Below, one piece after another: positions 19,413 through 24,400 of a stretch of DNA of 37,461 bases (positions within the stretch are counted from its first letter, which is position 1; the number at the start of each line of letters is the position of its first letter). The stretch comes from Flavobacteriales bacterium (GTDB lineage: Bacteria > Bacteroidota > Bacteroidia > Flavobacteriales_D > Sanyastnellaceae). The notes beneath the pieces were generated by a model, which did not search any database, was not told the origin of the DNA, and was given only the letters and a program-made list of their open reading frames with translations. The position numbers were made by a program, and so were the translations under genes. The stretch spans positions 1 to 37,461 of the forward strand of contig PKEB01000027.1 of the NCBI GenBank assembly GCA_002863125.1. Direction: 5' to 3'.

Positions 19413-20264
19413 ATGAAAGACATCGCAGCACTCTTCAAGGTCCGCCTCGGCTTCTTCGTGGTCATGTCTGCGATCCTCGGCTGGTTCATGGCCGTGGAGA
19501 CCTTGGATCTCAAAAGCTTCTTGCTGCTGACAATCGGAGGCTACCTGCTTACGGGTGCTTCGAATGGATTGAACCAGGTCATTGAAAAACGCGTGGATGG
19601 CTTGATGGAACGCACCGCCGAGCGCCCGCTTCCCGCTGGCCGCATGGAACCTTCGCAGGCGATTATGTACAGTGTTCTCGCTGGCATCATCGGCTTGGGG
19701 TGCCTGTTTACCTTGAATCCCCTCAGCGGTTGGTTGGGCGTTGCAGCGTTGGTTTCCTACGCATTCATCTACACACCGCTCAAGAGCCGTTCGACCCTCA
19801 GCGTGTTTGTTGGGGCCTTCCCGGGTGCATTGCCACCCATGATTGGGTATGTTGCAGCCACGGGGGACTTCGGCATCGAACCTGGGACGTTGTTTGCTGT
19901 TCAGTTCATGTGGCAGTTCCCGCATTTCTGGGCCATCGCTTGGCTCGCCCACGACGACTACCAGAAAGCTGGGTACCACATGCTGCCCTTCCGGGCGGGA
20001 CGAACCAAAGAAAGCGCTTGGCAAATCTTGATGTACACCGCGTTTTGCATCCCTGCGTCGCTGCTACCGTGGGCCCTTCCGGCGGGATCCCCGATGGTGG
20101 GCAACATCGCCTTGAGCGTGGCCATTCTCTGCGGAATCGGGTTCATGATTCCGGCCGTCAAGCTCTTCCGGACCTTGGACCGCAAGCACGCGCGGCAACT
20201 GATGTTTGCCTCGTTTGCGTACCTGCCGGTGGTGCAAATCGCTTACGTACTTGATAAAATTTGA
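19413..20264 (+). CDS. ctaB: Protoheme IX farnesyltransferase (heme O synthase)
   Basis: A 283-residue UbiA-family prenyltransferase with about eight to nine membrane helices. It adds a farnesyl group to heme B to give heme O, a precursor of heme A for cytochrome c oxidase. The prenyl-diphosphate site NGLNQVIEKRVDGLMERT (residues 51-68), followed by RPLPAGRM, is the CyoE/CtaB signature, and the second Asp-rich region is AHDDYQKAGYHMLP. It heads the oxidase genes. The start is seven bases before the first COX3 gene's ATG at its 3' end. In related genomes the subunit I gene usually precedes it; here a Wzi-like gene does. Confidence 0.96.
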   Translation: MKDIAALFKVRLGFFVVMSAILGWFMAVETLDLKSFLLLTIGGYLLTGASNGLNQVIEKRVDGLMERTAERPLPAGRMEPSQAIMYSVLAGIIGLGCLFTLNPLSGWLGVAALVSYAFIYTPLKSRSTLSVFVGAFPGALPPMIGYVAATGDFGIEPGTLFAVQFMWQFPHFWAIAWLAHDDYQKAGYHMLPFRAGRTKESAWQILMYTAFCIPASLLPWALPAGSPMVGNIALSVAILCGIGFMIPAVKLFRTLDRKHARQLMFASFAYLPVVQIAYVLDKI

Positions 20265-20270
20265 TTGAAC

Positions 20271-21065
20271 ATGGCCCAGACTTCAGCTGCCAAACCCGAC
20301 GTTTTTGAAGGACACGACCCCGCTGTTCGCGAGCGCACGAAGAAGATGTTGATGTACTTCATCGTTTTCGCCATCGTGATGCTGTTCGCGGGTTTTACCA
20401 GCGCCTACATTGTCTCCAACATGGGCCAATACTGGGTGCACGTGACGCCTACCACGCCGTTTTGGATCAGCAACGGTTTGTTGGTGCTTTCCTCGGTCGC
20501 CTTGTGGTTGGCCGTGCGGTGGATGCGCGCTGGGGATAAAGTCAAAACCCTCGCAGCCTTGGGCGGTACACTGCTGTTCGGCATTGGTTTCACCGTGAGC
20601 CAAGCGGAAGGCTGGCAGGGCATGGCCGACTTGGGCATGGGCTGGTCGGTGAGTGAACATGACTCGGGCATGGACGCCTACCGGTGGAACAGCATTGAAT
20701 CCATCATGGAAAGCGGCGCTGTCTACGGCGAGGACTATGAAGTTTCCCGCAACGGCCTTCCGTTGATCTACAGTCCCGAGCGCCAAGAATTTTATGCGTC
20801 GAACGACGAGCTGATGGTCAAGCCAATTACGCGGGATGTAGCACGCACCTCCAACTCCGGTGGCGGGTACCTGTGGGCCTTGATTGCGGTGCACATTTTG
20901 CACCTCATTTTCGGGTTTATTTACCTCGTTGTCAATGGCATACGTGTGGCCTTGGGGACCATCCACTCGGGTGATGTGGTCCGGCTCCAATCCCTCAGCA
21001 TTTACTGGCATTTCATGGGTGCACTGTGGCTGTACCTGTTCGCGTTCTTGTTCTTCTTGAACTAA
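20271..21065 (+). CDS. Cytochrome c oxidase subunit III, first copy, with internal soluble insertion
   Basis: A 264-residue COX3/heme-copper oxidase subunit III protein. Helices begin at RERTKKMLMYFIVF, with FAGFTSAYIV, and it ends with SIYWHFMGALWLYLFAFLFF, the family's His-containing final helix. Between helices, residues about 118-188 form a polar insertion (for example ESIMESGAVYGEDYEVSRNG) that has no helix character and is absent from the shortest family members of about 195 residues. The start at 20271 lies seven bases after the ctaB stop. Subunit III stabilises the proton-pumping core and has no metal centre of its own. Confidence 0.9.
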   Translation: MAQTSAAKPDVFEGHDPAVRERTKKMLMYFIVFAIVMLFAGFTSAYIVSNMGQYWVHVTPTTPFWISNGLLVLSSVALWLAVRWMRAGDKVKTLAALGGTLLFGIGFTVSQAEGWQGMADLGMGWSVSEHDSGMDAYRWNSIESIMESGAVYGEDYEVSRNGLPLIYSPERQEFYASNDELMVKPITRDVARTSNSGGGYLWALIAVHILHLIFGFIYLVVNGIRVALGTIHSGDVVRLQSLSIYWHFMGALWLYLFAFLFFLN

Positions 21066-21146
21066 AAATTCGCAGGGGAATTGAACGAAATACCCCGTTG
21101 ATTGTTTCCGGGCCACAAAAAAGGTGTTTCGTTGCAGGCAATTGAC

Positions 21147-21154
21147 TAAATTTA
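21147..21154 (+). promoter_or_regulatory. Possible internal -7 box before the second COX3 gene
   Basis: TAAATTTA is one mismatch from TAnnTTTG and lies 16 bases before the ATG at 21171, in a 105-base gap that is AT-richer than its surroundings. No other structure is evident in the gap. Confidence 0.3.
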
Positions 21155-21170
21155 CCGCCAAATTGTAGCC

Positions 21171-22151
21171 ATGGGCGGAGAAGCAACGAAAGCCATTTCG
21201 AAAGAAGTCCTCTGGGGAGGAGGTCGCTCACCTTTCAGCGTGAGTTATGGGAAGATGATGATGTGGTATTTCCTCGTGTCAGACGCGTTGACGTTCGGAG
21301 GATTGCTCACTGCATATGGATTCGTTCGCGCCAGCAGCACAGATGCTTGGCCCATCGGCGAGCAAGTGTTCCGCGCACTCCCCGGATTGGACGGAGAATA
21401 CCCGCTCATCTACGTAGCCTTGATGACGTTCATCCTCATTGTGTCTTCGGTCACCATGGTACTCGCTGTTGAGGCGGGTCACCGCAACGACAAAAGTGGC
21501 GTCATCCGCTGGCTCGGATTGACCATCATCGGGGGCTTTTTCTTCCTCGGTTCCCAAGCTTGGGAATGGTCGCACTTCATCCACGGCAGCGGCGGTTCGT
21601 TCCTGTTGGCAGAGAACGTCACAGTCACCGCAGACGACGGCGAAGTGTTCAACCTGTCCAAGGGCGATCCGGTCTTCATGGACCACCATTTTGGTCATTT
21701 GGCCGAGCCTTGGATTGAAGGCGAACCCAACGTCTCTTTGGTAGAGAGCGACCATGGCATCAAGCTGGTTGAGGTTGGTGAGCATTCCCACGAAGCAGAA
21801 TTGCACGCACTGACGCTCAACAAGTACGTCGAGAACGAATCCTTCGTCAGCGGCGATGAGGCCATGAAACTTTGGAACGCACGTTCCGGCACCTTCGCTT
21901 TTGGGGCGAACATGCACGACAACGAGTATGCGATTCAGCAAGCCTACGCGAACTTCTTCTTCTTCATCACCGGTTTCCACGGATTCCACGTGTTCTCGGG
22001 TGTGGTCATCAACATCATCATTTTCATCATGGTGATTCAAGGCGTATTCGAACGCCGCAAGCACTACGAAATGGTGGAGAAAATCGGCCTGTACTGGCAC
22101 TTCGTAGACCTCGTTTGGGTCTTTGTTTTCACCTTCTTCTACCTGGTCTAA
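21171..22151 (+). CDS. Cytochrome c oxidase subunit III, second copy, with His-containing insertion
   Basis: A 326-residue COX3-family protein. The N-terminal SYGKMMMWYFLVSDALTF, the VALMTFILIVSSVTMVLA helix, and the last helices FFFFITGFHGFHVFSGVV and GLYWHFVDLVWVFVFTFFYLV are strongly conserved in Bacteroidota subunit III. Residues about 140-250 form a large soluble insertion between helices, with two His-rich patches (MDHHFGHLAE and GEHSHEAELHA). It would pair with the first COX3 gene in one oxidase complex. It lies 105 bases after the first copy, with its own possible promoter. Confidence 0.93.
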   Translation: MGGEATKAISKEVLWGGGRSPFSVSYGKMMMWYFLVSDALTFGGLLTAYGFVRASSTDAWPIGEQVFRALPGLDGEYPLIYVALMTFILIVSSVTMVLAVEAGHRNDKSGVIRWLGLTIIGGFFFLGSQAWEWSHFIHGSGGSFLLAENVTVTADDGEVFNLSKGDPVFMDHHFGHLAEPWIEGEPNVSLVESDHGIKLVEVGEHSHEAELHALTLNKYVENESFVSGDEAMKLWNARSGTFAFGANMHDNEYAIQQAYANFFFFITGFHGFHVFSGVVINIIIFIMVIQGVFERRKHYEMVEKIGLYWHFVDLVWVFVFTFFYLV

Positions 22152-22178
22152 CCCTGCTCAATTTTAACCCCAGCAACC

Positions 22179-22556
22179 ATGGAACGCGACGACCTCATTG
22201 TAAACGATAGCTACGCCCTCAATTCCCACCACAGCGAAGAAGAAGGCGCCAAGATTCGCAAGAACATCTGGAAGGTTACGGGCATCCTCACCTTGCTCAC
22301 CACGGTGGAAGTCCTGATGGGCATCTACTTCAAGCGCTCGGAGACGTTCACGTGGACCATGATCAAGTGGTCGTTCATCATTCTGACGTTGGTGAAGGCT
22401 GCGTACATCGTTTTGGTGTTCATGCACTTGGGGGATGAGCGCAGCAACCTGAAAAAGGTCATCATTGCACCCTACATGCTCTTCATTGGGTACTTGATAT
22501 TCATTGCAATTTCCGAAGGTTTCGGGCATTTGGGCAACTTCAATACCCTGCACTGA
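22179..22556 (+). CDS. Small cytochrome c oxidase subunit IV (prokaryotic COX4 type)
   Basis: A 125-residue membrane protein with an acidic N-terminal segment (residues 1-25) and three hydrophobic segments. The motif VFMHLGDERSNLKK and the preceding KWSFIILTLVKAAYIVL match the small bacterial COX4/CyoD-like subunit seen after COX3 in Bacteroidota clusters. Its likely role is assembly or stability of the oxidase complex. It starts 27 bases after the second COX3 gene. Confidence 0.88.
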   Translation: MERDDLIVNDSYALNSHHSEEEGAKIRKNIWKVTGILTLLTTVEVLMGIYFKRSETFTWTMIKWSFIILTLVKAAYIVLVFMHLGDERSNLKKVIIAPYMLFIGYLIFIAISEGFGHLGNFNTLH

Positions 22557-22618: not shown

Positions 22619-23854
22619 GTGAGCACTCCCCTTTCCAAAACCCTCAAGAAGTATGCGGTCCTATTGGGCATCATGCTCGCGTTGCCGTTGATTGGGCTCA
22701 TGGTTTTGGGCGTCCACGGAGAGCACCATTTCAACACCCTCCCTTACTTCACCGAGGACGGTACCACCGAAGCATTCAGCGAAAGCGTTCAACGGGTGCA
22801 GCCGTTCGCATTAACCAATCACCTTAGCGAGCCATTCGATTCCCAATCGCTCGACGGAAAGGTGTGGCTGGCGGCCTTCTTTGCGACCGATGCGCCGCAC
22901 GTGGCGCAAGTGACCAAGCAACTGCTCTGGCCCAACTTTCGGTACCGCGACGAGAGCGACATCACCACCGTGTGCTTCACGTTGGACGCTGAGCACGACA
23001 CGCCCGAAGTACTGGCCAAGTATGTCGAGCGCAACACGCGCTACAACGGTTTTGACGGGAAGTGGCAATTCCTCACTGGCAAGCAAACCGACATCGATGC
23101 CATCATTGCGGAATCTTTCATGATCGAGCGGGATCCCTCGGACCCCGACAACATCGCCACGCTCTGGCTGGTGGACAGCAAAGGCTACCTGCGCGGTGTG
23201 TACCACGCGGCTTCTGAAGATGCCATCAAGGACGCCGTGGAAGACATTGCCTTGCTCCAAAAGGAAATGGACGAGGCGGCCTACGCCAAGAAAAAGCGAG
23301 CGGAAGCGCTCGCCGACCTCCCTCCACTGCCCGTGCTGGGGCCAGAGGGGCACACGGTTCCGCCGTTTGCGTTTCTCGATAGCGACAGCGTGGAGTTTTC
23401 CCATTACGATTGTGACGGGCAGCTGCGCGTGGTTGACTTTTTCTTCACGACGTGCCCAACGATTTGTCCCATCATGTCCAGCCAAATGGCGCGCCTTCAA
23501 GCCGGAATCGAAGCGAAGGGAATGAAGGGCGACGTCCGACTCATCAGTCACTCCGTCGACCCGGAGAACGACACGCCTTCGCAGCTGAAAGAATACGGGG
23601 AGCGACTTGGTCAGGACCCCGTGGTGTGGAAACTGCTGACTGGCAACAAAGAAGACCTCTACGACCTCGCCCGCAACGGGTACTTCCTCACGGCCATTGA
23701 AAGCGATACCGCAGCCGGTGGCATCTTCCACAGCGACATCTTTGCAGTTGTCGACCGCAGCGGCCGCATCCGCGGTTACTACGACGGAACTGACACCGAG
23801 GAGGTGGATCAGCTGCTAGAAGCCGTCGAGCAACTCTGGGCACTCAATGAATAA
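22619..23854 (+). CDS. Two-domain SCO/SenC protein: degenerate N-terminal copy fused to an intact C-terminal copy
   Basis: A 411-residue protein with a membrane anchor at residues 11-31 and two thioredoxin-like SCO domains. The C-terminal domain (about 232-408) keeps the copper ligands Cys279 and Cys283 in FFFTTCPTICPIM and His371 in FHSDIFAVVDRSG, so it should deliver copper to the CuA site of cytochrome c oxidase. The N-terminal domain (about 60-215) aligns over the same elements (DTPEVLAKYVER with DTPSQLKEYGER; WLVDSKGYLRGVY with AVVDRSGRIRGYY), but FFATDAPHV replaces the CxxxC site and the His is lost. Ordinary SCO proteins have one domain of about 200-230 residues. The start is GTG; DUF420 follows after three bases. 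Confidence 0.88.
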   Translation: MSTPLSKTLKKYAVLLGIMLALPLIGLMVLGVHGEHHFNTLPYFTEDGTTEAFSESVQRVQPFALTNHLSEPFDSQSLDGKVWLAAFFATDAPHVAQVTKQLLWPNFRYRDESDITTVCFTLDAEHDTPEVLAKYVERNTRYNGFDGKWQFLTGKQTDIDAIIAESFMIERDPSDPDNIATLWLVDSKGYLRGVYHAASEDAIKDAVEDIALLQKEMDEAAYAKKKRAEALADLPPLPVLGPEGHTVPPFAFLDSDSVEFSHYDCDGQLRVVDFFFTTCPTICPIMSSQMARLQAGIEAKGMKGDVRLISHSVDPENDTPSQLKEYGERLGQDPVVWKLLTGNKEDLYDLARNGYFLTAIESDTAAGGIFHSDIFAVVDRSGRIRGYYDGTDTEEVDQLLEAVEQLWALNE

Positions 23855-23857
23855 GCC

Positions 23858-24400
23858 ATGGTAAACAACGAAACAAACGTAAAGCGCTTCATCTGGACCA
23901 TGGCGGTGGTCATCCCTACCGTCGTTGCCCTGTTGTTCCTCATCCCACCTGTGGAGTCCCTCTCGGAATCCACCCGGCAATCACTGTACATCCTTCCGAA
24001 GCTCAACGCCCTCTTCAACGGCACCGCCTTTTGCTGCCTCATCGCGGCGTACGCAGCCATTCGCAGCAAAAACATCAAAGTGCACCGCGCTTTCACCACC
24101 ACTGCGCTGAGCTTGAGTGTGCTGTTCCTCGTGAGCTACGTTGCTTTTCACTTGACCACCGAATCCACCAAATTTGGCGGCGAGGGCTGGATCCGCAGCG
24201 TTTACCTTTTCATCCTGATCTCCCACATTGTATTGTCTACTGGAATCATTCCGTTGGTGCTTTTCACCTATGCCCGAGGGCTGGGGATGCAAGTGGAGAA
24301 ACACCGCAGGCTGGCCAAAATCACCTGGCCAATCTGGCTGTACGTTACCGCAACCGGGGTGATTGTCTACTTGATGATTTCACCATACTACCCGCATTAA
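23858..24400 (+). CDS. DUF420 family membrane protein (YozB/CtaM-like)
   Basis: A 180-residue protein with about five hydrophobic segments. LPKLNALFNGTAFCCLIAAYAAIRSKNIKVHR, split across residues 47-78, and FILISHIVLSTGIIPLVLFT carry the conserved Asn and His of DUF420. In Bacillus the DUF420 protein YozB (CtaM) is needed to build active heme A oxidases, so a role in oxidase assembly fits. It starts three bases after the SCO gene and is followed one base later by the small CxxC protein. Confidence 0.88.
   Translation: MVNNETNVKRFIWTMAVVIPTVVALLFLIPPVESLSESTRQSLYILPKLNALFNGTAFCCLIAAYAAIRSKNIKVHRAFTTTALSLSVLFLVSYVAFHLTTESTKFGGEGWIRSVYLFILISHIVLSTGIIPLVLFTYARGLGMQVEKHRRLAKITWPIWLYVTATGVIVYLMISPYYPH

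Follow-up and report, generated by a model that had tools for sequence, protein, structure and literature searches.

The closest described systems are the Sco proteins of the SCO1/SenC family, such as YpmQ/BsSco and human SCO1. The protein studied here consists of two Sco domains, designated U (N-terminal) and D (C-terminal). Both share the fold of SCO1/SenC proteins and are homologous to them, and D also shares the CxxxC motif and the His ligand; the membrane anchor and the neighborhood of oxidase genes are common features as well. At the same time, the solved SCO1/SenC matches align to one domain each, whereas our protein combines in one chain a domain without copper ligands (U) and, behind it, a live copy (D).

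A Sco paralogue that likewise lacks CxxxC and His and occurs alongside a Cu-type Sco (HCC1) is the plant mitochondrial protein HCC2. The excerpted text of two studies describes HCC2 as a protein without copper motif that is not required for oxidase function (PMC3971200) and links it to stress defense (PMC3971200; PMC6307045). A review, as far as its excerpts go, mentions the interaction of HCC2 with a metallochaperone module, calls the action of a ligand-less Sco very surprising and states that its role needs more research (PMC6696091). By analogy, U may be considered HCC2-like: it has the Sco fold, no copper motif and a Cu-type paralogue beside it. HCC2, however, is a separate eukaryotic protein, whereas U is bacterial, lies among oxidase genes and is joined here to a live Sco.

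Two Sco paralogues for one oxidase are described, in the excerpted passages of two further sources, for human (SCO1/SCO2) and Paracoccus (ScoA/ScoB) systems (PMC9145763; PMC6696091). The U-D arrangement resembles both in that paired Sco paralogues go with one oxidase. SCO2, ScoA and ScoB retain the ligands and are separate proteins. Thiol-disulfide oxidoreductases of the TlpA/ResA type also act near CuA assembly. They share the thioredoxin fold with U, but U of the window lacks the Cys pair and is closer to Sco crystal structures (Z about 17–21) than to ResA (Z about 14). Neither a fused live-dead Sco nor this bacterial U gene was found among the literature matches listed, which covered few subscription papers. 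An earlier, sequence-only reading of this locus knew of no described system with this architecture; within these matches this is true of the live-dead fusion, but a ligand-less Sco was already known (HCC2).

The window, i.e., the whole stretch of 37,461 nucleotides analyzed here, contains the fused gene together with a group of oxidase assembly genes (Table 1).

Table 1. Features of the fused Sco gene and its neighbors in the window
Feature	Position	Strand	Basis or remark
UbiA family (ctaB-like), two COX3-family genes, COX4_pro	19413-22556	+	Pfam; upstream
Fused U-D Sco protein	22619-23854	+	411 aa, GTG start, stop within coordinates
N-terminal helix, residues 5-32	22631-22714	+	Modelled helix; N-terminus alike in split U copies
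U domain (ligand-less Sco fold), residues 60-215	22796-23263	+	Pfam, model, structure matches
DAPHV (residues 91-95) at the CxxxC place of U	22889-22903	+	Sequence, alignment
Asn178 of U at the ligand His place	23150-23152	+	Alignment
Charged helical linker, residues 216-244, without Cys	23264-23350	+	Sequence
D domain (canonical Cu-type Sco), residues 245-408	23351-23842	+	Pfam 92 bits; 4hde Z 23.8
CPTIC, Cys279 to Cys283, in D	23453-23467	+	Sequence
His371 in D	23729-23731	+	Sequence
DUF420 membrane protein (CtaM family)	23858-24400	+	Pfam DUF420 149 bits
Small CxxC peptide with hydrophobic segment	24402-24635	+	Behind DUF420

Both halves of the protein score above the curated cut-off of the Pfam family SCO1-SenC (PF02630; 22.8 bits), U with 48.8 bits and D with 92 bits. 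The predicted structure of the whole protein has a mean pLDDT of 87.6 and a pTM of 0.62, from which the individual domains are sound and the mutual placing of U and D is not fixed. U modelled alone reached a pLDDT of 94.0 and a pTM of 0.90. Its best solved match in the re-scored Foldseek ranking, where each match covers one domain, is the Sco protein 4hde (Z 21.2, 157 aligned residues, rmsd 2.2), which D matches as well (Z 23.8). The top 14 rows for U are Sco entries or Aquifex aq_2194, and the other thioredoxin-fold proteins follow below them with Z <=15.4; some NMR models of Sco also rank lower (Z 14.5–17). Thus, residues 60–215 are predicted as a Sco fold, in agreement with the sequence-only reading, which had recognized two SCO domains in this protein. 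Its borders for the first domain stand, while the second one, given as 232–408, is better placed at about 245–408.

D has all the features of a Cu-type Sco, namely the Pfam match, the fold, the CxxxC motif and the distal His; U has the Pfam match and the fold but lacks CxxxC and the distal His. The assignment of ligands in the earlier reading, with all three retained in the second domain and lost in the first, was therefore correct. The sole Cys of U in the window (C119) lies off the former site, and there is no CxxC of the TlpA/ResA type in this domain. The N-terminal helix, with its transmembrane (TM) character judged by eye from sequence, is read as a single TM anchor, as in separate U genes. 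In the model, a long helix (residues 200–232) extends into the linker between the domains. The last residues of the linker, LPVLGPEG, resemble the LPxxG segment that comes after the Cys of the lipobox in separate D proteins. At an E-value limit of 0.1, NCBIfam revealed no family for the fused protein, the DUF420 protein or the CxxC peptide.

A full-length fused frame was found in 19 out of 21 genomes of the same genus; in one of the others it is truncated by the contig end and one contained no match. A second set, 79 loci from MAGs, comprised 56 fused, 20 split and three partial or unrelated loci. The two sets overlap, several assemblies being common to both, so that the counts are not additive; the MAGs stem from many different projects, most of them titled Flavobacteriales and some Crocinitomicaceae. 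Since the full-length fused frame recurs in orthologues, a frameshift or an assembly error joining two genes, which the earlier reading had raised as a possible flaw, is ruled out. Taken together with the purifying selection described below, these counts make it extremely improbable that the locus represents a frameshift, a chimera or a decaying pseudogene domain. It should be mentioned that the titles of four MAG loci (L113, L114, L122, and L146; Chryseobacterium gleum, Euryarchaeota) mismatch their sequences, which cluster with Flavobacteriales rows.

The families sampled are designated f1 (Sanyastnellaceae, the family of this gene) and f2–f13. Fifteen other genera of f1 were sampled: in five the slot carries the fused gene, and in ten it is occupied by two neighboring genes. 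The order in the latter is cox4 – U – D – DUF420 – CxxC peptide, with U directly upstream of D in all ten genera. The sequence-only reading treated the locus as one odd fused protein; the fusion itself is real, but this description is too narrow, since 10 of the 15 genera have U as a gene of its own and fusion is repeated.

The state of the ligand places in U and D, as counted here, depends on the alignment. None of the 81 distinct U domains of f1, fused or split, has Cys in the old site. As the split copies also lack it, the loss of Cys predates the fusion. The His place is occupied by Asn in all 56 distinct fused U domains of f1, and His is present there in six out of 25 split ones. The 183 domains classed as D, with third paralogues and Sco of the outgroup counted in, read C, C, H in 181 cases; of the remaining two, one is truncated and the other contains X.

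Outside f1, U-like genes were seen in this slot in genomes sampled from f3, f9, f10, f11, and f13. In 56 out of 58 distinct domains of this kind, both Cys are present and the His is replaced by A, Y, F, S or W (Cys-type U); the spacing of their Cys is variable, from Cx3C to longer. Only one non-f1 U (L212) has C, C and His. In another one, a U-like domain of f10 (L052), the Cys have been lost too, with Y and S at the two places, apparently separately from the loss in f1. Sco-like genes with the Cys pair and without His (L048, L053, L055, L060, L062, L065, L066, L070, L071, and some of L172–L212) sit upstream of a Cu-type Sco in several families of the order. In two loci the D gene is split into two or three frames (L071, 7088–7718; L209, 3549–4091), by sequencing error or decay.

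The cox slot was sought in 23 genomes of other families and could be read in 22: ten contain U and 12 a single D without room for U. The 12 of the 22 read slots that are without U belong to families f2 and f4–f8, as judged from the cox slot only. On this evidence, CuA assembly as such does not require U.

In a tree of 94 U+D pairs, a quick tree with long branches among the Cys-type rows, the fused state needs three changes, and well-supported branches force all three. One split pair (L117/L119), whose D has a lipobox by eye, is nested in an otherwise fused clade of f1 (98*). Because fission would need a regained lipobox there, the simplest account is that the U-D fusion arose twice in f1 and once in f3; the three changes could also be mixed gains and losses. 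The fusion in f3 is represented by 15 loci (L173–L187) from three genera, with frames of 398–406 residues and a Cys-type U. A single clade of f1 U and Cys-type U has a support of 33 only in the quick tree, and trees with f1 U beside f1 D or beside all D fit equally (AU p 0.524 and 0.58). In a phylum-wide search of 198 genomes with a profile of Cys-type U, the matches listed from outside the order did not exceed 108 bits, the range of ordinary Sco proteins, and no fused double Sco was noticed among the rows listed. Among the best five of 106 plasmid-borne relatives, the top one was a single Sco gene of Pontibacter actiniarum (219 aa).

The Cys pair without His in most non-f1 U domains could form a dithiol site, and U may accordingly have its own job apart from D, for example in redox or stress defense as proposed for HCC2. 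The excerpted text of one study fits this proposal, since in it the ligand-less HCC2 rescues the sensitivity of yeast to ROS (PMC6307045). But U adjoins D in the oxidase cluster and has repeatedly been fused to it, and the lack of Cys in U of f1 excludes a thiol job at the former site in this family; we consider a separate job quite unlikely.

The same Cys pair is compatible with support of the redox or copper cycle of D, in which Cys-type U would reduce thiols of D or subunit II and U of f1 would retain binding only; Sco2 is cited as a possible keeper of the redox state of Sco1 in the available part of one paper (PMC3971200). Against it speak the variable spacing of the Cys, which does not suggest one conserved dithiol chemistry, and the low support for a single origin of the two U groups. 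This role of U seems very unlikely.

The fused and separate genes differ in their membrane anchors. Separate U genes have an N-terminus of TM type, as judged by eye. D genes beside a U encode lipoproteins, 36 of 39 by pattern and the remaining three (L199, L200, and L204) by eye; the D of L210, set aside by the distance rule, likewise has a lipobox. When D is alone in the slot, a lipobox is found in none of 12 genes, and a U-like TM start is present (L044–L047, L049–L051, L054, and L056–L059). A single D of this kind may have arisen by joining the anchor of a U to a D domain. Both lipoproteins and TM-type starts occur among the outgroup Sco genes of the class. None of the 39 linkers examined in fused proteins contains Cys, meaning that the lipid anchor of D is gone.

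These anchor changes are central to the main rival explanation, which reduces U to a passive role as spacer and membrane anchor; the fusion would then swap the lipid anchor of D for a TM helix, and the U domain would set the height of D above the membrane. The fused proteins indeed keep the U-type start without the lipobox Cys of D, and the anchor of D varies with the presence of a neighboring U in the way this explanation suggests. However, U also persists as a separate gene next to D genes that have a lipid anchor themselves. The main difficulty for this explanation is how strongly U is conserved: the constraint on U is higher than that on the catalytic domain, which is not expected of a spacer, and so a purely passive role appears unlikely.

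Within the genus, purifying selection acts more strongly on U than on D. Comparison of 20 genes (190 pairs) gave a median identity of 0.765 and pN/pS of 0.202 for U and 0.681 and 0.273 for D, the pN/pS values allowing only a rough comparison because synonymous sites are near saturation. Averaged over columns, conservation in 38 fused proteins of f1 amounts to 0.729 in U and 0.707 in D. The former Cys loop and its helix are more conserved in U (0.816 vs. 0.749), as is the C-terminal helix (0.838 vs. 0.507), while the situation is reversed for the His loop (0.887 in D vs. 0.739 in its U counterpart). Its conservation and pN/pS show that U is not decaying.

Since U adjoins D and has been repeatedly fused to it, we infer that the two work together. 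The explanation we favor, which we regard as evenly balanced between right and wrong, is that U is an old copper-free Sco paralogue that anchors D and packs against D, subunit II or an assembly factor. Fusion of the two adjacent genes would have produced a membrane-anchored pair of Sco domains. In this pair, D would function as an ordinary Cu/thiol Sco, metallating or reducing the CuA site of oxidase subunit II, and U would hold D at the inner membrane via its TM helix. The former active-site helix of U (TKQLLWPNFRYR) and its C-terminal helix (EDIALLQKE) would form this contact, through which U may take part in CuA assembly.

The sequence-only reading had suggested a docking or regulatory module for the CuA subunit, or for DUF420 and the CxxC peptide downstream. 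The ligand-less domain beside a live one was described correctly and the strong conservation of U fits such a module, which is, however, older and wider than this gene. Docking by U is thus plausible, and the interaction of HCC2 with the metallochaperone module agrees with a role of U as a partner. Pointing against it are the dispensability of HCC2 for the oxidase, the absence of U from more than half of the read slots of other families and the location of cox1 and cox2 on another contig.

The bacterial genes offer a ligand-less Sco tied to a live Sco by position and by repeated fusion among oxidase genes, and its role can be tested by removal of one domain of one gene. The pattern spans the order: the copper-dead Sco partner is older than the fusion and has repeatedly been fused with the live Sco. 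As a more tentative extension, which we think somewhat less probable than its opposite, a live and a copper-dead Sco may form an obligate pair for oxidase assembly, fused three times, in which the loss of ligands was adaptive and produced a dedicated docking subunit. If this is true, ligand-less Sco proteins elsewhere, HCC2 included, would be partner subunits rather than spare copper chaperones; and if the two U groups go back to separate duplications, the same solution would have arisen twice.

The genes behind the fused gene were also compared. DUF420 corresponds to CtaM, which Staphylococcus aureus and Bacillus subtilis need for oxidase activity according to the accessible text of one source (PMC9145763). 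The small CxxC peptide, with the CxxC just past an apparent signal peptide, had no Pfam or NCBIfam match; a C..C pattern is present in all 53 matching frames (duplicates included), most commonly as CSTC, CAMC or CVMC. Its gene was not seen in the f9 loci read.

The genome is 98.7% complete and contains one COX1 and one COX2 match, both on a contig other than that of the fused gene, C7 in the case of subunit II. A search for PCuAC gave no match in it and was positive in three of 14 control genomes; Sco would therefore be the expected route to CuA. A further Sco gene (L073) is located on contig C13 at 73765–74250; it reads C, C, H and has a TM-type start.
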